The notes under the pieces are model-generated. The model saw only the letters and a list, made by a program, of their open reading frames with translations. It was not told where the DNA came from and searched no databases. A DNA stretch of 23,668 bases, taken from the IMG/VR virus record IMGVR_UViG_3300031339_000044, positions 1 through 23,668 of that record. One strand, 5' to 3'. Each line of letters begins with the position of its first letter. Position 1 is the stretch's first letter. Source of the stretch: a virus. The translations under genes were made by a program, and so were the position numbers. Shown in pieces: positions 13,524 to 21,442 of this stretch.

Positions 13524-13557
13524 TTCTCGTATTTATAATAAACTGTAAATATGAGAA
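13524..13557 (+). promoter_or_regulatory. Start-codon hairpin built on the GTATTTATA motif
   Basis: TTCTCGTATTTA (13524-13535) pairs with TAAATATGAGAA (13546-13557) over 12 base pairs with one G-U wobble and a 10-base loop. The motif forms most of the left arm, and the ATG of the next gene (13551-13553) lies in the right arm. As RNA it would hide the start codon; as DNA it is an operator-like dyad. Confidence 0.55.
13529..13537. promoter_or_regulatory. GTATTTATA motif, site 2
   Basis: The nonamer lies 14 bases after the polymerase stop and 13 bases before the next ATG, inside the hairpin described at 13524-13557. Orientation is the same as at the other five sites. Confidence 0.5.
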
Positions 13558-14147
13558 AGAAGGATATAAACGAAATCATAGACGGTGACGACAATTTAAT
13601 AGGCACTGAAACAACACCATCTACTGGTGCTAATAAAGAAACTATGGCAAATAATACTACAGATTATAATGCCAAAGTACATGGTCAGAATTTCAAAAAC
13701 GATTTTTTAGGGAGATTGGGGTTCTTCGGTTTCGAATCAGAAGAAGATATCAAAGATGTGAAAGAAAAAATAGCCAAGATGATGTATGGTAAGTACCTGC
13801 AAAGTCTTGACTATTATTATTCTAATCCTGATAAATTAAAGTCTGATTATGAATTACATCTAAGTGGTGGTAATATTGATTTTTCAGGTAATATGAAAGA
13901 TGTTGATCATGAATGGGCTGATGCTATAATGAAAGTTGTTAAGCCACATATGAAAGATCAAATCGATGAGGGTCATGTATCCGAAGAAAAAATTCTTGAT
14001 AAAGACAGAAAAAAAAAGAAAGATGCACTAAAGAAAGAAAAAGATGATGATCATGAGTTGAATTATAAAGCAAAAAGAGTTGCGGATTTAATTGATAAAC
14101 TACCTGAAAAAGATAAAAAGAAGATTAAAGCAATACTTGAGCAATAA
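13551..14147 (+). CDS. Charged hypothetical phage protein
   Basis: A 198-residue protein that I do not recognise. Residues 1-45 are polar and probably disordered (Asp, Thr, Asn). Residues 46-135 look globular (NFKNDFLGRLGFFGFESEED, MYGKYLQSLDYYYSNPDKL, HEWADAIMKVVKPHM). The rest is a strongly charged helix with a Lys/Asp run (150-168) and a C-terminal KRVADLIDKLPEKDKKKIKA helix. The final base of its stop is the first base of the next ATG (TAATG), so translation with the Nudix gene is probably coupled. The start codon sits in a hairpin with the GTATTTATA motif. A virion or assembly role is possible from the surroundings, without direct evidence. Confidence 0.7.
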   Translation: MRKKDINEIIDGDDNLIGTETTPSTGANKETMANNTTDYNAKVHGQNFKNDFLGRLGFFGFESEEDIKDVKEKIAKMMYGKYLQSLDYYYSNPDKLKSDYELHLSGGNIDFSGNMKDVDHEWADAIMKVVKPHMKDQIDEGHVSEEKILDKDRKKKKDALKKEKDDDHELNYKAKRVADLIDKLPEKDKKKIKAILEQ

Positions 14148-14926
14148 TGAATTCTGAACTTTACGATAATGAATACCAAATACCAGATCAGATTCTTAAT
14201 GCAATAAGAATGAAACTTTACAGCTCTTCGGATGCTGAGGGGATTAAACGTGCTAAGAATTTAATCAAATCAGGTAAATGCACATATCAGAATCTTAAGA
14301 GATTAAAGAACTTCTTTGATAATTTCAATCCAAGTACCGAATCTATTGAACAATTTGAACTTGCTGGTGGTGCACAAATGCGTAATTTTGTTAATACTAC
14401 TTTACAAAGAGAGCGTAATAAAGTTGAACATGGTCAGAAAGTTAGACAAGATATTGATGTTGATCTAAATGATCCAGATGTAAAAGCACAAGATGGCACT
14501 GTCAATCTTAGAGAGCAAGAGGAAGAACCTAAATATAAGAATGCATTAGCTATCATATTCAATGTAGATAATGAGATACTTATCTTGAAGAGGTCACCAT
14601 ATGAAGAACAATGGATGCCAAATAAGTTTGGCTTAGTCGGTGGTGGTATCGAAGAAGGAGAGACTGCCGAAGAAGCAATGAGAAGAGAAGTCATAGAAGA
14701 GACTGGTCTTCAGTTAGATATAGTTCTAGATAAGGGTTGTGTACAAACAAATCCTGATAGTAAAGAATATTTATTTCTTACATTATATACAGGTAATAAT
14801 GATGATGTGAAGTTAAATAAGGAACATACTGATTATGTGTGGAGTAATTTTCATTCATTAAAACATCATGATTGTGTACCTAATCTGGAAGAATATGTGA
14901 AGCTTGCTGTAGAAAAGTATGATTGA
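14147..14926 (+). CDS. Nudix hydrolase with N-terminal helical domain
   Basis: A 259-residue protein. Residues 132-250 are a Nudix domain. The box runs 166-188: G166, E172, then REVIEETG (180-187), fitting Gx5Ex7REUxEExGU with the Mg-binding glutamates present. Nudix enzymes cleave a diphosphate linked to another group; substrates range from damaged dNTPs to capped RNA ends or NAD derivatives, and the substrate here cannot be read from sequence. Residues 10-90 form a separate helical domain (PDQILNAIRMKLYSSSDAEG, KRAKNLIKSG, YQNLKRLKNFFDNF, GGAQMRNFVN) that I believe recurs in other phage proteins but cannot name. A typical stand-alone Nudix protein is about 150 residues, so this is a fusion. 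It is coupled to the preceding gene by a one-base overlap. Confidence 0.9.
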   Translation: MNSELYDNEYQIPDQILNAIRMKLYSSSDAEGIKRAKNLIKSGKCTYQNLKRLKNFFDNFNPSTESIEQFELAGGAQMRNFVNTTLQRERNKVEHGQKVRQDIDVDLNDPDVKAQDGTVNLREQEEEPKYKNALAIIFNVDNEILILKRSPYEEQWMPNKFGLVGGGIEEGETAEEAMRREVIEETGLQLDIVLDKGCVQTNPDSKEYLFLTLYTGNNDDVKLNKEHTDYVWSNFHSLKHHDCVPNLEEYVKLAVEKYD

Positions 14927-14928
14927 AA

Positions 14929-14937
14929 GTATTTATA
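14929..14937. promoter_or_regulatory. GTATTTATA motif, site 3
   Basis: The nonamer starts 3 bases after the Nudix stop codon ends (14926) and lies 32 bases before the next ATG. It is followed by a second partial copy with a 10-base palindrome, ATTTATAAAT (14937-14946). Only a weak 6-base arm (GTATTT with AAATAC at 14958-14963) could form a longer hairpin. Confidence 0.45.
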
Positions 14938-14969
14938 TTTATAAATCATATTAATTAAAATACAACAAA

Positions 14970-15209
14970 ATGAGTAGATTATTAGAAAATTCAGACGAAT
15001 ACAGACAGAGAAATAAAGCTAGAAATACCTTTACTTCTGAAGATGATTATAACACAGGACATCCAAATGCTCTAAGTGATGGAGATGAAAGAGGTAGAGG
15101 TCAACAACAAAATCAAGTTGGAACAGCCACCGACATTAGAAAACGTGAAGAATTAGCAACCAAAAGCATGTTCAATAAAAACAATCCGTACAACATCAAC
15201 AATGCTTAA
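14970..15209 (+). CDS. Small hydrophilic hypothetical protein
   Basis: A 79-residue, very polar protein rich in Arg, Asn, Gln and Asp (YRQRNKARNTF, ERGRGQQQNQ), with no hydrophobic core. It is probably disordered or a small binding or virion protein; I do not recognise a family. It follows GTATTTATA site 3. The last 8 bases overlap the start of the WYL-like gene, suggesting coupled translation and a shared function. Gene status rests on the overlap, the preceding motif and an ATG in A-rich context (CAACAAAATG). Confidence 0.6.
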   Translation: MSRLLENSDEYRQRNKARNTFTSEDDYNTGHPNALSDGDERGRGQQQNQVGTATDIRKREELATKSMFNKNNPYNINNA

Positions 15210-16035
15210 AGAAAATAAATTAATACGTGATAAGATCAAAGATTTTAGATTGCTAACAGAATCAATAAGCAGAGATGTTATTATTGATGCTGTGAACAAT
15301 AGACATGTGTTAAAAATTTATTATGCTGGTGATGAAACAATCAATAGAGGTTGGAGAACTATAGAACCTTATGCTGTAGGTGCTCATAAAGATAGTGATA
15401 ACATAGTAATAAGAGCATGGCAACAAGCAGGTGCTACTGATAGTGGTAGAGCACCGAATAAAAAAAATGAAGGACTACCGGGTTGGAGATTATTTAGACT
15501 TGATGGAATAACTTCTGCATATGATTTTCCTAACAAGAAATTTGCAAAAAATGGTGTTAGAGATGGCTACAGAAAAGACGGTGAAGATAAATACATGAAA
15601 AGTGTTATTGCTGCAGTTGTAGCTGGCAGTGATAATATGGCTGTCGATCTACAAGGTATTAGTTCATATACCGAACCTGATGTTATAAAAACTAAACTAT
15701 CTAAGTTTGATCCACAAGGTGAGAAATTTAAAAACTTTTATGATGCTTCTGAAAACCAAGAAGAAGTTATTAAGAGAAGAGTCAATGATTTTTACACTAT
15801 GATTAGGCAGAATAATAAAACTCCATCAAATTATTTGGTTACAAATAAAAATGGTAAATTTTGGTATACTAAAAAAACAAACAAAAATAAATTTCAACCT
15901 GACGAAATAGTTGGCGACCTTAATATTTTATTCCGTAAATATTTTGAACCTAATCAATTTAAAGTCAATCAACAATTTATCGATAAAACAAGAAAAGGGT
16001 ATGAAGATAAGATGAAAAAATCAACTAAAGTATAA
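15202..16035 (+). CDS. WYL-like domain protein without a DNA-binding domain
   Basis: A 277-residue protein. Residues 23-108 fit the WYL fold: VLKIYYAGD (36-44), GWRTIEPYAVG (50-60), IVIRAWQQAG (68-77) and GWRLFRLDGITS (94-105). WYL domains are ligand-sensing or allosteric modules of bacterial regulators and some defence proteins, usually fused to a helix-turn-helix. Here no such motif is visible. Instead, 160 basic residues follow, including HTH-unlike helices (EEVIKRRVNDFYTMIRQNN) and KFWYTKKTNKNKF. It starts within the small upstream gene (8-base overlap). It could be a phage regulator of host transcription, a nucleic-acid binding protein, or a virion component; the domain call is by pattern only. 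Confidence 0.65.
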   Translation: MLKENKLIRDKIKDFRLLTESISRDVIIDAVNNRHVLKIYYAGDETINRGWRTIEPYAVGAHKDSDNIVIRAWQQAGATDSGRAPNKKNEGLPGWRLFRLDGITSAYDFPNKKFAKNGVRDGYRKDGEDKYMKSVIAAVVAGSDNMAVDLQGISSYTEPDVIKTKLSKFDPQGEKFKNFYDASENQEEVIKRRVNDFYTMIRQNNKTPSNYLVTNKNGKFWYTKKTNKNKFQPDEIVGDLNILFRKYFEPNQFKVNQQFIDKTRKGYEDKMKKSTKV

Positions 16036-16052
16036 TTTTTTTAGTTTTTTCA

Positions 16053-16061
16053 GTATTTATA
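16053..16061. promoter_or_regulatory. GTATTTATA motif, site 4
   Basis: The nonamer lies 17 bases after the WYL-like gene and 31 bases before the next ATG, preceded by a T-rich run and followed by A/T-only sequence. Its 3' part can pair with TTTTATAA at 16075-16082, but this may be chance in such AT-rich sequence. Confidence 0.45.
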
Positions 16062-16092
16062 AAAAATAATAAAATTTTATAAGAAATTTGAG

Positions 16093-16860
16093 ATGGATTT
16101 TCAAGGAATAAAAAATAGAGTCGAAGAAGAAAGAAAAAGAAGAGCTACCGAAGGTGAGCAACGTGGTGATACAATGACAATGCCACGAGGCAATGCACCA
16201 AAAGATAGTTTACTACACGAGCTTCAATTATCATTACAAACTGGTAAAGCAACACCAATGGTTGAAAATATGAAGCAAGTCGATAGAGTTGCTAATAGTA
16301 AATCGGGTGCATCTGGTAGACCAGCACAAGGTGGAAATGGTGGGGGTGGATTAGGTGATGTACTATCACAACATATCGGTGCACCTCCTAAACAACAACA
16401 AGGATATGATCAACAGCAACCGCCTAGACAGCAGATTAATGAACAACAACATAATCCTCGTGATGATCAGTTTGATAGACAATTTCAACAGAGACCATCA
16501 TCCCAAGCTTCATTAAGTGAACAATTAAGTCAAATGGGTGGTAGTGGACAAATGAATCCTCAGCAACAAATGATGGAAGCATATCAGAAGATGCAAGGTA
16601 CACAACAACCAATGAACAATCAGCAACCACAACAGCAACCACAATACAATGGTGGTAATATTAATGAGCAAGTGAGTCAAGCATTAAATAATGTTGATTT
16701 TTCATCGTTATTACAAGAATCATTGAAGAGTACTATTATGGAAATGTATTCTATGGAAAAGGTTCAAAAGTCTCTTATTGAGAATAAAGATGTAATTAAA
16801 AAGATTGTAAAAGAAACATTAATCGAACTTTCTCAAGCAAAAAAGAAAACTACTGGTTAA
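16093..16860 (+). CDS. Gln-rich, low-complexity phage protein
   Basis: A 255-residue protein. Residues 1-30 are a charged helix (KNRVEEERKRRATE), and 72-88 are Gly-rich. Residues 99-187 are dominated by Gln, Pro and Asn (QQQ runs), resembling prion-like or assembly-prone segments. Residues 203-250 form a conserved-looking amphipathic helix (FSSLLQESLKSTIMEMYSME, KKIVKETLIEL). I cannot name a family. Possible roles are a prohead scaffold or core protein, or a linker in virion assembly, because such proteins are often low-complexity with a structured C-terminal helix; this is inference. It is a single gene between GTATTTATA sites 4 and 5, with no overlap on either side. Confidence 0.7.
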   Translation: MDFQGIKNRVEEERKRRATEGEQRGDTMTMPRGNAPKDSLLHELQLSLQTGKATPMVENMKQVDRVANSKSGASGRPAQGGNGGGGLGDVLSQHIGAPPKQQQGYDQQQPPRQQINEQQHNPRDDQFDRQFQQRPSSQASLSEQLSQMGGSGQMNPQQQMMEAYQKMQGTQQPMNNQQPQQQPQYNGGNINEQVSQALNNVDFSSLLQESLKSTIMEMYSMEKVQKSLIENKDVIKKIVKETLIELSQAKKKTTG

Positions 16861-16925: not shown

Positions 16926-19790
16926 ATGGGTATTATAAGAAGAGAAATATGGACACTTGATGAGGATTTCGAATTACAAGAAGATTATCCTACATCTTGG
17001 GATAAAGAGGAATTCAAAAAACAAACAAGCTTTGCTGCTAGAAAAAAATATGCTGATCAGCATTTACAAAAATTAGGTTCTGGTTCTGCAAGACATGTAT
17101 ATGCTATTGATGATGAAAAAGCATTGAAATTAGCTGCTAATAGAAAAGGCTTAGATCAAAATGCTGATGAACATAAAATATCAACTATTGGGTGGCATGA
17201 TGATGTAGTTGCCAGAGTATTTGATTCACATCCAGATGATTTATGGATTGAAAGTGAGCTTGCTCGTAAAATAAAACCAACTAGATTTAGGGAATTAACA
17301 GGCTTCAATATTCAAGATGTGGGTGCTTTTTTGAATCAGTATAATGATGAAAGAAATGGTAGAAGAGTTAGCTATGGTAAATTAAGTGACAATCTTTATC
17401 AGGAAATGGTTAATAATGAATTTATCATGGACATATTATCAATTGTGGATAATTGGGATATGCAGACAGGAGACTGGGGTAGGATTTCTTCATATGGTGA
17501 AGTGAAAAGAAACGGAAAACCACAAGTTGTTTTAATCAACTATGGTTTAACTCAAGACACATATAAGACACACTACGATAAATCTCAGAATCGTCCTGTT
17601 TATGAAAATACATTAAAAAGGGAAGGTATTAGTAAAAATTTAATTAATAGGATTAATGAGATGATGAAACCTATTGTTGATCAAGGTGATCTGGAAAAGT
17701 TATCAACTGATAATACTCAAGTCTATGACGGTGGATATGGTGGATTTGCATTACAACCAGATAGTGTATCACAAGGTGGATTAAATAGTGATATTGATGA
17801 AAATCTAGATAAATTCTCTAATGTCAATACTAAAGCAATTCAAAGTGCAATCAATAGCATTAAAACATTTGATCCAAGTAAAATATCTGATTTATATAAA
17901 AAATCGGATTTGATAAATATCTATAATAGTTATATGATTGCTGCCCGTAATACAGAAGAGGTATTATCAGCTTCAAGTAATGAGGTAAATTTCTATGATA
18001 AATTAATGTTAATTCAAGATTTTCTAAAAAGATTAAATATTGTTAATGAAAATTTAGAATATAATCATGTCAACGATGCATCACCTGAAAGTGATAAGTA
18101 TCAATTAGCAGAATATGAGGAAGTTATTAATGATAAGTTCAAAGAAGAAACGATTCATGATATAGCTAAGAATGCAAGTGAAAGACTTGGGTATCATGGT
18201 GAACTATCATATATGGGTAAAGGTGATAATGGATATGAATATGATCTAGGTGATGGTAAAGTCTTAAAAATTACTGGAAGTGAAACAGAAGCTGCAGAAA
18301 GTTTAAGATTGAAAGGTAAAGATAATCAACATCTAGCAAAAATATTTAATGTATATCAAATTAATAAAGAACATATTCAACTATATATAGTATTACAAGA
18401 AAAGATTGACACCAGTAGACAAGGTGAGATGGGTCAATATAGTAAAGAGTTAAATTCATCATTTTCTAAAAATATTAATAAACCACTTGGAAAACTATTA
18501 ATGGCATACTATACTGATCCAAATTTATATAATATGGTATATGCAGATAAGATTGAAAAAAGTCTTGAATTAAATAATGTTTCTGAAAATGCTAAAAATT
18601 TCTACTATGGATTGATTGGTATAATGGATGAAGTTAAAACTGCAAAATTAGATACCATCGATTTTTTCCTTCCAAGTAACTTAGGATATAAAAATGGTAA
18701 TTTAGTTTTCTTTGATTTTGGAGGTAGATACGATAAATCAATCGGTAAGAAAAAACCTAAGCAAATGAAAATGGGTGAAGGTGGTGATTCTCTTTATATG
18801 ACACAAAATGGAACTAGAGATGAAGATTTTGAAGAGGATATGGGTGAGATGAATGAACGTATCACTAGTTATATGCCAAAGTCTAAGAAAGTAAGTGTTA
18901 AGAAGAAATGTGTTATTGGTGGTAATGAAGATGGAACTTCAACTGCATGTAATAAAGGTGATATTAACAACTTTGACATTGAAGAAATTAATGATGACAA
19001 TACTGACAGAAGAAAAGACAATTTTATTAATGTAGCTGAGGATGATGAAACAAATCGATATTATTTTGAAACCATGATTAGTGAAGAAATAAAACGTAAC
19101 ATAGCTGAGGATTATGTAAACGATAATCACACTAGAAATATCATACATAGTTATATTAATATTGTGTTGGACAAATATCTATACCCAAACTTGGATAATA
19201 TTATTGCTAGAAATACTAAATCTACTGGTATTGATGAAATAAACCTCACTCCTTTAGAAATTAAAGATGAACTACCTAATGATTTAAAAGATGTTGAAAC
19301 GGCATTAGTTAAAATAATACATAATACGGAGGCTTTGTATAGACCTGAAGAAAATACTATTTATCTAGGGTTTCTACCTGTAGAAATACCAAGTGAATTT
19401 AAGAATGATAGAAATGCAGTTGGTGATTATGTTAAGCAAATACTTACAAAATATCGTGATAAAATTAAAAGAACTTTAGTTCATGAATTAACACATGCAT
19501 TTGATCAAAAGAGAGGTTATTTAACTACCCCAAACTATACTATTTCTGATGATGTATATGATAAAGTATATTATAATAATAGTGCAGAGACAAATGCACA
19601 TTTTTATGAGTTACTAGAACATTTATTGGATTTAGATAAAGTAGCTAATTTTAATGAATTCATTAATAGACTTGTTGGAAGATCAGAAACTAGGTTTGCA
19701 ATCTACTATAGAGAATTAGAACCTAAGAAGAAAAGAAGAATGATTGGTAGATTATATAAATTCTATAGTGGATATATAGAAAACAAGTAA
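16926..19790 (+). CDS. Multidomain protein: two kinase-like folds and HExxH metallopeptidase
   Basis: A 954-residue protein. The first kinase-like region, about 45-210, has a glycine-loop form LGSGSARHVY (50-59), lysine strand KALKLA (K68), NWDMQTGDWGRI and VLINYGL (202-208), where NYG replaces DFG, so it may be inactive. The second, about 415-605, has MGKGDNGYEYDL and GKVLKIT (K448), HLAKIFNVY, FLPSNLGY (N585) and FFDFGG (DFG 597-599); it keeps the residues expected for ATP and metal binding, but no HRD is seen. A CVIGGNEDGTSTACNKGD segment (662-679) is unassigned. The C-terminal domain contains HELTH (853-857) and ETNAHFYE (E888), a zinc peptidase arrangement with H853, H857 and probably E888. 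Such a protein could modify and cut host or virion proteins. The domain calls are by motif; the combination is unusual. The gene stands alone after a terminator. Confidence 0.75.
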   Translation: MGIIRREIWTLDEDFELQEDYPTSWDKEEFKKQTSFAARKKYADQHLQKLGSGSARHVYAIDDEKALKLAANRKGLDQNADEHKISTIGWHDDVVARVFDSHPDDLWIESELARKIKPTRFRELTGFNIQDVGAFLNQYNDERNGRRVSYGKLSDNLYQEMVNNEFIMDILSIVDNWDMQTGDWGRISSYGEVKRNGKPQVVLINYGLTQDTYKTHYDKSQNRPVYENTLKREGISKNLINRINEMMKPIVDQGDLEKLSTDNTQVYDGGYGGFALQPDSVSQGGLNSDIDENLDKFSNVNTKAIQSAINSIKTFDPSKISDLYKKSDLINIYNSYMIAARNTEEVLSASSNEVNFYDKLMLIQDFLKRLNIVNENLEYNHVNDASPESDKYQLAEYEEVINDKFKEETIHDIAKNASERLGYHGELSYMGKGDNGYEYDLGDGKVLKITGSETEAAESLRLKGKDNQHLAKIFNVYQINKEHIQLYIVLQEKIDTSRQGEMGQYSKELNSSFSKNINKPLGKLLMAYYTDPNLYNMVYADKIEKSLELNNVSENAKNFYYGLIGIMDEVKTAKLDTIDFFLPSNLGYKNGNLVFFDFGGRYDKSIGKKKPKQMKMGEGGDSLYMTQNGTRDEDFEEDMGEMNERITSYMPKSKKVSVKKKCVIGGNEDGTSTACNKGDINNFDIEEINDDNTDRRKDNFINVAEDDETNRYYFETMISEEIKRNIAEDYVNDNHTRNIIHSYINIVLDKYLYPNLDNIIARNTKSTGIDEINLTPLEIKDELPNDLKDVETALVKIIHNTEALYRPEENTIYLGFLPVEIPSEFKNDRNAVGDYVKQILTKYRDKIKRTLVHELTHAFDQKRGYLTTPNYTISDDVYDKVYYNNSAETNAHFYELLEHLLDLDKVANFNEFINRLVGRSETRFAIYYRELEPKKKRRMIGRLYKFYSGYIENK

Positions 19791-19827: not shown

Positions 19828-21048
19828 ATGAGTCAAACTACAAACATAATGTCATTACAAGACCTTCCAATTAAGGAAGAAGTTCACCAACTAGGTGGTA
19901 AAATCTACTCTGTTGGTGGTGCTGTACGTGATGAGTGGTTAAATAAACAATCCAAAGATTTGGATATACTAATCACTGGTATACCTATGAATAAGCTAGA
20001 GCAGCTACTTTCCAAATACGGAAAGGTAGATGCTGTTGGTAAATCATTTGGTGTGCTTAAGTTTGTACCTAAAGGATCGACTCAAGATATCGATGTTGCT
20101 ATACCAAGAAAAGAACGTGCCACAGGTGAAGGTGGTCACAAAGGTTTTGAAGTCGATGCTGACCACAATATACAATTAGAAGAAGATTTATATAGAAGGG
20201 ACTTTACATTTAATGCAATGGCAAAAGACATGGATGGTAACTTAATCGATCCGTTCGGTGGTAGAATGGATATTACTAAGAGAACAGTTAGAGAAGTTAA
20301 TCCTGATACATTTACTGATGATCCATTACGTATGTTAAGAGCAGTACAGTTCGCAGCTAGATTTGATATGGATATCCATGAATTTACTAAGGAGAGCATA
20401 AGAGTGAATGCTTATAGAATTAATGAGATTGCTGGTGAGAGAATTCTTGAGGAACTCCGTAAGGTTGTTGACAAGGGTGGTAACAAAGTAAAAGCTATTC
20501 ACTTGTTAATATCAACTGATTTATACAAAGAGATAGCAGGTGTTGATATCACTGAAGAACAGATAAGTTGGTTTGAAAAAAGTATATGGAGTGATGTTGA
20601 AACATTAGGTGAATTTCTTTATATGTTATTCCAACCATTACTAACAGTAGAATTTATTTATGAAATCAGTGAAAAACTTAAACTGGATAATAATACTGAA
20701 AATGAGTTGAGAGCATTGGCACATGCTGATGCATTTAAGGATTTTGGATTTACCGATGCAGGTAAAAGAGATGTTTTATCTAAAGTTTACAGTGTATATC
20801 CTAAAGTCCTAAAAAGCGGTGTGCTACCACTACAGTATTTTCACTGTGTCAATGAATTTGAAAGAGGTCTTTACCCTAAATCAATTAAAGACTTAGCCAT
20901 TAATGGTAATGATTTGATGGGGATAGGATTGAAAGGTATTGAGATTGGTAAAGCATTGAAAAAGGCATTGATTGAAATTTATTCTGACAAAGTTAGTAAT
21001 AGTAAAAAAGATTTATTAAATTTAATCGCAAAAGAAGATAATGGGTAA
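19828..21048 (+). CDS. tRNA nucleotidyltransferase / poly(A) polymerase family protein
   Basis: A 406-residue class II nucleotidyltransferase. Motifs: GGAVRD (30-35), DLDI (44-47, metal-binding D44 and D46), QDIDVAIPR (third Asp near 87-89), RRDFTFNAMA (123-132), DPFGG (141-145), DDPLRMLRAVQFAARF (164-179) and ERILEEL (204-210). A C-terminal helical part has INGNDLMGIGLKGIEIGKAL. Length and domain order match bacterial CCA-adding enzymes, which add or repair the CCA end of tRNA; poly(A) polymerases share all these motifs, so activity is not settled. In a phage it could maintain tRNA ends attacked by host nucleases. It heads a cassette whose next gene begins 8 bases before its stop. The start is the ATG after AAAATATA; MSL at residue 8 is an alternative. 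Confidence 0.9.
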   Translation: MSQTTNIMSLQDLPIKEEVHQLGGKIYSVGGAVRDEWLNKQSKDLDILITGIPMNKLEQLLSKYGKVDAVGKSFGVLKFVPKGSTQDIDVAIPRKERATGEGGHKGFEVDADHNIQLEEDLYRRDFTFNAMAKDMDGNLIDPFGGRMDITKRTVREVNPDTFTDDPLRMLRAVQFAARFDMDIHEFTKESIRVNAYRINEIAGERILEELRKVVDKGGNKVKAIHLLISTDLYKEIAGVDITEEQISWFEKSIWSDVETLGEFLYMLFQPLLTVEFIYEISEKLKLDNNTENELRALAHADAFKDFGFTDAGKRDVLSKVYSVYPKVLKSGVLPLQYFHCVNEFERGLYPKSIKDLAINGNDLMGIGLKGIEIGKALKKALIEIYSDKVSNSKKDLLNLIAKEDNG

Positions 21049-21442
21049 AATTTTATACACAGCAGTAGTATTGACGAATCAATCACATGTTAAATTGATG
21101 ATGACTTTAGGTGATCTCATTCCTGATGATTGGAAGAAATTCGCACATCATATGACAGTGGTATTTGGTCAGGGTCTTCCCGAAAACTTGGAAAAGTATA
21201 ATGGTATGAACGTGAAGCTTACTGCAACTAAATTAGGTATTTCTGACAAAGCAATTGCAGTTAAAGTTGAGGGATTTTATAGTAATAATGATATCCCTCA
21301 CATTACCGTTGCTGTGAATACACAAGCAGGTGGTAAACCATTTGATTCGAATAAGATTACTGATTGGAAACCACTAAGTGAAGTGACTAATGTTAGTAGT
21401 ATTGAATTTGATGGAGTGGTGACGGAAGTTAAAGCGAATTAA
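21041..21442 (+). CDS. 2H phosphoesterase-like protein
   Basis: A 133-residue protein with the two HxT signatures of the 2H superfamily: HHMTVVF (H37, T39) and PHITVAV (H87, T89), spaced 50 residues apart. This superfamily (LigT, cyclic phosphodiesterases, tRNA-ligase phosphodiesterase domains, viral 2'-5' phosphodiesterases, phage Acb1) opens cyclic or 2'-5' phosphodiester bonds. The opening KILYTAVVLTNQSHVKLMM and the closing FDGVVTEV are consistent with the duplicated fold. It overlaps the nucleotidyltransferase by 8 bases and the nuclease-like gene by one (TAATG), so RNA-end processing is a natural guess; removal of cyclic-nucleotide or 2'-5' oligo signals used in host defence is another. 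The substrate is unknown. Confidence 0.75.
   Translation: MGKILYTAVVLTNQSHVKLMMTLGDLIPDDWKKFAHHMTVVFGQGLPENLEKYNGMNVKLTATKLGISDKAIAVKVEGFYSNNDIPHITVAVNTQAGGKPFDSNKITDWKPLSEVTNVSSIEFDGVVTEVKAN

Follow-up and report, generated by a model that had tools for sequence, protein, structure and literature searches.

A phage polyprotein with two kinase-like domains and a zincin-type metallopeptidase, a candidate capsid-targeted cargo with putative prohead-protease sites at its module junctions

The DNA analysed here, called the window, is the whole of IMG/VR virus record IMGVR_UViG_3300031339_000044, 23,668 bp long and a fragment without head genes. Our subject is its 954-codon open reading frame (ORF; coordinates of all features are collected in Table 1), which has an ATG start and zero internal stops and whose product carries two kinase-like domains (K1 and K2), a conserved CNKGD segment and a metallopeptidase. 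The same gene lies at the equivalent place in two IMG/VR contigs, L002 (99% identical) and L003 (84%, 643 residues). Because these proteins occupy the same place in other contigs, we regard the frame as a real gene and its product as the single 954-residue chain that an earlier note on this DNA had described. The L003 protein lacks residues ~296-372 and the whole metallopeptidase; its chain stops right after NRYYFEEIVREEVKK, where the window chain runs on into the metallopeptidase. We suggest, as the probable though by no means secure reading, that the gene encodes a capsid-targeted cargo polyprotein, which would be cut into separate enzymes in the prohead by a protease of family S77 and then injected.

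The two near relatives were all that came up when the single protein or three close rows served as query, and the wider family was reached through degenerate DNA patterns for the segment (CNQGD in most members) and the linker and through a K2 profile. In IMG/VR the two CNQGD patterns gave 9 and 43 loci, the EDLEYNHV linker pattern 26 and the K2 profile 75, on contigs of up to 597 kb and with chains of up to 3198 residues. Most members are giant mosaics, and the window protein is a short one. The usual order is K1, one or more K2 copies, linker, CNQGD segment and changing cargo domains, and the modules (K1, K2 copies, CNQGD, GNAT, ART-PolyVal, S-adenosylmethionine (SAM) lyase, CCA-adding nucleotidyltransferase (NTase), 2H/Acb1-like) are shuffled among relatives.

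The C-terminal module is a predicted zinc metallopeptidase, zincin-type by motif and homology. H853, E854, H857, D860, Y882, E888, N890 and A891 are invariant in 10 aligned metallopeptidases, which bears out the HELTH motif and downstream Glu on which the earlier note had based the same assignment; in the predicted model (pTM 0.77) a sheet is followed by a helix with HELTH and then by a helix with E888. The phage-type metallopeptidase (MPTase) has been defined by HEXXH, an Asp three residues on and a Glu in the next helix (PMC5512222), all of which are found here, and the His near the end of MPTase strand 2 from the same definition is found in some, not all, family members. The module profile matches proteins of PA5oct and LR756508 (hhalign E 3.1e-31). 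A fold search of the PDB with the model gave zero matches at E<0.001, with zincins ranked best; a library of viral models gave three metallopeptidase matches at E<1e-3 (6e-5), all uncharacterised or unnamed; and the profile had no match among PDB sequences. Membership of Pfam Peptidase M76 was rejected, at 14.2 bits against a gathering cut-off of 25.2. The module stands alone in PA5oct and lies elsewhere in the chain of L030. Stand-alone copies start with short leaders ending in LTE, LIE, INE, LFE, MKE or LNE.

An AlphaFold2 model of residues 20-640, built with 21 aligned relatives, is confident for both kinase domains and poor for the linkers. When the PDB was searched with the K1-K2 model, the matches listed at the top were all of the kinase superfamily, among them APH(2'')-IIa (8.2e-4); further listed matches are JNK1, MLKL, PINK1 and PknB, and the TYK2 pseudokinase-kinase pair across 531 columns. 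The two kinase-like folds of the earlier note, which had named structure prediction and fold search as the check, are thus supported. K2 has the features of the protein-kinase-like superfamily: G-loop, Lys, Glu, catalytic Asp and Asn, DFG-type Asp and the bilobal fold, the spacing from Asp to Asn being 6, not 5. In an alignment of 30 copies the columns G, K, T, E, N, G, Y, D and G are invariant, and the Lys, Glu, Asp, Asn and DFG-type Asp are retained in nearly all (D579 is N in L002); K448, N585 and D597, which that note had singled out as kept, are present and conserved. Motifs and fold are the basis on which we assign K2 to the kinases, since sequence searches gave none: the K2 profile found among PDB sequences only PBP2X and one Hfq (best E 0.001), which we judged spurious, and Pfam scans of 30 members matched no kinase family for K2. 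The kinase group of PMC5512222 has a Gln in the last N-lobe strand, an insert between His and Asp and a reduced C-lobe; by description, not alignment, LQE at Q491 fits this in many K2 copies and differs in others.

K1 matches part of the kinase SteC by profile (3.5e-5) and is a protein on its own in XacN1. It falls short of the kinase catalytic-residue set, although Lys, Glu and the Asp of DxG are present in relatives. The earlier note had called this region degenerate because it reads NYG for DFG. The NYG at residues 205-207 is there, but it belongs to the window contig only: L002 and L003 have DYD and DHG, and the Asp is retained by the remaining aligned K1 copies, for which reason we rejected NYG as a family trait. 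K1 looks degenerate on other grounds, since the position of its catalytic-loop Asp (D178) varies between D, N, A, G, S and Q in the K1 copies of polyproteins, with Asn changed to Asp in the same loop. The stand-alone Asteriusvirus homologue retains a canonical loop (DIRKQN...DYG).

The case for cutting lies at the module junctions. T4 gp21, an S77 enzyme, cleaves after L/I-X-E (PMC9026906), and L/I-x-E sites are found in the leader and at the putative processing points of this family. In 26/26 held-out non-redundant members the segment that follows CNQGD closes with [LIVM]xE, and the sequence beyond is unrelated; a fused CCA domain has [LIM]xE ahead of it in 11/11; and the recurrent linker, with the consensus EDLEYNHVxxDATxDEYxLxE, has the terminal [LIM]xE in 21/22 new loci. 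The CNQGD segment itself (consensus ERxxSYMxGSxxVxVKKKCxLxGxGNTSxACNQGDINNLxxxSIxE) has [LIM]xE sites on either side and, when searched for in named phages, gave no match. The CVIGGNEDG/ACNKGD stretch is present as the earlier note printed it, but relatives have GGNGDG or G(L/N)GNTS, and CVIGGNEDG is private to the window because G668E is derived there relative to L003 and the family. Modules have such a site ahead of them in different settings. K1 comes after SITE in L015 and after ELQE in the window, and the stand-alone XacN1 protein has FLSE at its N-terminus ahead of the domain; the homology of L015 begins immediately past the site (SITE/DYPESF, against ELQE/DYPTSW in the window; the slash marks the boundary). 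One module lies behind YMLGE within the L036 chain and behind YVLGE within that of L040, and in L050 it opens a separate gene after the short leader MVNNKQNLDE; the metallopeptidase of L030 is a cassette between MLGE and ALIE.

For a count, boundaries were taken as the edges of BLAST matches internal to both proteins and were defined blind to the motif. [LIM]xE occurs at 103/174 module starts against 55.6 expected (z 7.5) and at 97/163 ends against 51.9. With one example per distinct context the figure is 67/136 against 42.9 (z 4.4), and [LIM]xD, [LIM]xK and the reversed motif are all null in that test. The held-out set gave 118/292 against 86.6 (z 4.0), again with no enrichment of [LIM]xD or [LIM]xK. 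A form with a small middle residue, [LIM][NTSGKDA]E, was picked after the first set had been viewed, and only its held-out value (z 5.9) should therefore be weighed. In the window protein, linkers account for 38% of the chain and contain 11/15 of the [LIM]xE sites (P 0.006).

A suitable protease is encoded by related phages. S77 is found in 11/11 tested records of at least 240 kb that have the polyprotein or K2 (G024 scores below the Pfam cut-off, the other ten above), in one 203-kb and one 200-kb record, and in PA5oct, XacN1, ph0011 and LR756508; shorter polyprotein-bearing fragments gave no S77 match. The gene block around the window polyprotein is common to S77-bearing phages, including a syntenic one. 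The S77 domain of G003, G019-G022, G024, G029 and W04 lies in unusually long open frames (576-718 residues), and the match is split in two in G003, G019-G022 and W04, which would fit a large insertion or an additional domain. Chains of the family start with sequences, for example MTYAEFKTNFLPE, that resemble T4 capsid-targeting leaders, and the N-terminus of L038, MSREIWNLNE, is similar to MGIIRREIWTLDE. Two metallopeptidase homologues of PA5oct, gp380 and gp381, are annotated as structural protein by electrospray-ionisation tandem mass spectrometry (ESI-MS/MS). Packaging in the virion followed by injection, one of the roles offered in the earlier note, is thus the likely one, by way of these homologues.

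We suggest the following course of events. The polyprotein would be a late product, and its N-terminal leader, perhaps together with the CNQGD segment, would take it into the prohead. Within the leader and the linkers between domains, the S77 prohead protease would then cleave behind [LI]-x-E and so release K1, K2 and the metallopeptidase. Injected with the DNA, the released pieces would modify or degrade host defence or regulatory proteins, with K2 presumably acting as a kinase and the zincin as an effector protease.

Several points weigh against this proposal. The [LIM]xE sites are shared by descent and hence not independent, and the reversed motif E-x-[LIM] is also enriched at held-out boundaries (distinct contexts z 3.2), so that general linker acidity may explain part of the boundary signal. 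Within the window, the site after CNKGD is imperfect (EINDD vs S[IV]xE), the separate CCA and 2H genes have no clear leader, and a 23.7-kb fragment without head genes leaves the phage's own protease outside view. Two tested records (218 kb and 200 kb, possibly incomplete) have no S77 match. The modules, the sites and the protease of related phages are in the sequence, and the virion status of homologues stands in annotation; packaging, cutting, injection and the kinase and protease activities are what we infer from these. The enrichment of the reversed motif would also suit an ordinary polyvalent protein (Iyer et al. 2017) that is packaged and injected uncut and whose [LIM]xE sites are flexible acidic linkers, and there is precedent in the N4 virion RNA polymerase and in ArdC/TraC1, which are transferred full-length (PMC5512222). 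We consider an uncut chain unlikely: 26/26, 11/11 and 21/22 sites are conserved exactly at the junctions, [LIM]xD and [LIM]xK are not enriched, S77 is in all the large genomes tested, and a leader ending in LDE takes the place of the linker once a module is its own gene.

Processing could instead be the work of the metallopeptidase, cutting its own chain to free the kinases as has been proposed for P1 DdrB-like polyvalent proteins; the zincin is the commonest polyvalent domain, autoprocessing by it has been proposed (PMC5512222), and in the window protein it sits at the C-terminus. We think this very improbable. A HExxHxxD metallopeptidase of this kind is in only 3/69 polyproteins, for which reason we rejected it as a general self-processing enzyme; moreover, L003 retains the linkers without the metallopeptidase, and the PA5oct copy stands alone. 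The earlier note had suggested a pseudokinase-regulated kinase coupled to a protease. In its unpackaged form, an intracellular regulator made after infection in which K1 controls K2 and the protease acts on the phosphorylated target, this draws on the catalytic Asp, not conserved in K1 and kept in K2, and on the position of the gene in a block with DNA polymerase and helicase genes. The architecture lends such regulation no support, because [LIM]xE sites set the domains apart as modules that are shuffled among relatives: K1, K2 and the metallopeptidase vary in copy number and are found separately, L003 is without the metallopeptidase, and XacN1 has K1 alone. The leaders similar to capsid-targeting sequences and the annotation of PA5oct metallopeptidases as virion proteins also argue against an unpackaged protein, and we rate this account as improbable, a shade more so than the uncut chain.

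As the cargo polyprotein that we favour, the protein is related to several known systems. It combines disparate activities in one phage chain, two kinase-like domains and a zincin, to which relatives add GNAT, ART-PolyVal, SAM lyase, NTase and 2H, and so belongs with the polyvalent proteins. A 2017 paper (PMC5512222) describes such proteins with kinases, metallopeptidases, GNATs, ARTs, NTases and 2H domains, and the statement of the earlier note that no described phage protein has this set was too strong. The likeness extends to many unrelated catalytic domains per chain, to the same domain set including the zincin with its HExxH, Asp and Glu, and to predicted packaging and injection. The present family differs in its EDLEYNHV linkers, its CNQGD segment, its two or more kinases and its CCA-adding enzyme, and its [LIM]xE junctions point to the prohead protease, where that paper proposed metallopeptidase autoprocessing and noted assemblin-like peptidases at C-termini; the word 'linker' is absent from it. 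With T4 internal proteins and Alt (PMC9026906) the family shares a short leader ending in [LI]xE, S77 in related phages and, by our proposal, injected enzymes, whereas T4 cargo consists of separate genes with terminal propeptides and here one chain would yield several enzymes. PA5oct gp380/gp381 and the tandem homologues in LR756508.1 are of the same metallopeptidase family and have a leader ending in LTE or LIE, but are stand-alone single-domain proteins. The K1 family includes phrog_4301, XacN1 ORF170 and an Asteriusvirus 'protein kinase domain-containing protein', which differ in standing alone at ~200 residues, the Asteriusvirus loop being canonical and the polyprotein K1 loops not. In the literature searched we found no account of polyproteins that are segmented by [LI]xE and processed by a separate prohead protease of family S77.

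The two sister viruses are 99% identical, yet window 16926-19787 and L002 8001-10862 show 9 nonsynonymous and 0 synonymous differences, against 10 nonsynonymous and 16 synonymous in ten other shared genes (Fisher P 0.0015). Sequencing error is an unlikely source of the excess because the other genes of the pair differ mostly synonymously. Judged against L003 and the family, D205N (K1), A438E (K2), A572T and G668E are derived in the window, and S188Y and G207D in K1 and D579N in K2 are derived in L002. Five of the six K1/K2 differences fall on columns conserved at >=90% (46/413 columns; P about 1e-4, computed post hoc). In these two contigs both sisters thus altered conserved residues of both kinases independently, which suggests selection against kinase activity or lost constraint. 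The broadest claim would be that these are gag-pol-like cargo polyproteins of up to 3200 residues, with changeable anti-defence and RNA-repair enzymes, S77-cut at [LI]xE and injected, and also that host-imposed selection is so strong that the two sisters independently lost conserved residues in both kinase modules; for this whole conjunction we put the chances at a little under even.

Cargo above the Pfam cut-off includes ART-PolyVal (8e-14), SAM lyase (2.8e-14), GNAT, cytidylyltransferase-like, 2'-5' RNA ligase (2H) and CCA-adding NTase domains, with SprT-like and DarA_C in the metallopeptidase-bearing L024; an Acb1 (anti-CBASS) match is recurrent below the cut-off. The SAM lyase is at residues 884-999 of L038 1057-5613 (-) (2.8e-14), with a 2H/Acb1-like domain in the same chain. 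Residues 766-917 of L031 627-5741 (+) have a weak, below-cut-off match (4.4e-5) to the cysteine methyltransferase family NleE. The CCA-adding enzyme, a separate gene in the window, is fused into the polyprotein in L016, L017, L030, L037, L127 and others; it would repair tRNA ends, and the 2H phosphoesterase would destroy cyclic-nucleotide alarm signals. Homologues of the upstream 198-aa, NUDIX, WYL and Q-rich genes are near the polyprotein in 50-83 loci. The 198-aa gene (13551-14147) is beside it in 50 loci and has a weak, below-cut-off bacHORMA_1 match (0.0058). The 79-aa ORF at 14970-15209, which starts MSRLLENSDEY, is a further short protein with an N-terminal LxE. L165 (JAKQEK010000201.1), a contig binned with a Bacteroidota metagenome-assembled genome, has K1, K2 and the same WYL and Q-rich neighbours; because of this binning the host is probably Bacteroidota. 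The polyprotein-bearing phages, which we read as huge T4-like phages, would thus probably infect that phylum.

Table 1. Features of the polyprotein gene and its neighbours in the window
Feature	Position	Strand	Evidence
Conserved upstream block: 198-aa gene, NUDIX, small ORF, WYL-domain protein, Q-rich protein	13551..16860	+	NUDIX 1.3e-16, WYL 1.5e-4
954-aa polyvalent protein: leader, K1, linker, K2, CNKGD segment, metallopeptidase	16926..19790	+	ORF; relatives L002 99%, L003 84%
N-terminal leader, residues 1-19, two LxE sites (LDE13, LQE19), candidate capsid-targeting sequence	16926..16982	+	L015 homology, L038 N-terminus
K1, kinase-like, residues 27-231, phrog_4301 family; K68, E82, N205 (D in relatives)	17004..17618	+	PHROG 2.5e-14; XacN1 ORF170 1e-9; alignment; fold search
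LAE396 site ending recurrent linker ENLEYNHVNDASPESDKYQLAE	18105..18113	+	linker consensus
K2, kinase-like, residues 398-605: K448, E455, D579, N585, D597	18117..18740	+	30 aligned copies; model and PDB fold search
MNE644 site between K2 and CNKGD segment	18849..18857	+	[LIMV]xE at same position in most relatives
CNKGD segment, residues 645-688, ~45 aa, most conserved part of family	18858..18989	+	single copy in most polyproteins
ISE720 site ahead of metallopeptidase module	19077..19085	+	short leaders of stand-alone homologues
Zincin-type metallopeptidase module, residues 721-954, HELTHAFD and E888-x-N-A	19086..19787	+	hhalign E 3.1e-31; model pTM 0.77
HELTH 853-857 (predicted zinc site), then D860; Glu ligand E888 at 19587-19589	19482..19496	+	invariant in 10 sequences; one predicted helix
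tRNA nucleotidyltransferase (CCA-adding type), own gene	19828..21048	+	PolyA_pol 1.2e-23
2H phosphoesterase-like protein, own gene	21041..21442	+	tRNA_lig_CPD 3.1e-05; 2H/Acb1-like domains in relatives' polyproteins

With a capsid-targeted, prohead-cut polyprotein, what was only loosely described as a multi-domain phage protein would become a delivery system that can be tested, and two literatures would be linked, that on polyvalent proteins and that on T4-type head proteolysis. The [LIM]xE boundaries may allow the enzymes injected by huge phages to be predicted module by module, and the linker and the CNQGD segment would serve as a search handle for new anti-defence enzymes, with SAM lyase, Acb1-like, ART, GNAT, protease and kinase domains among the cargo.

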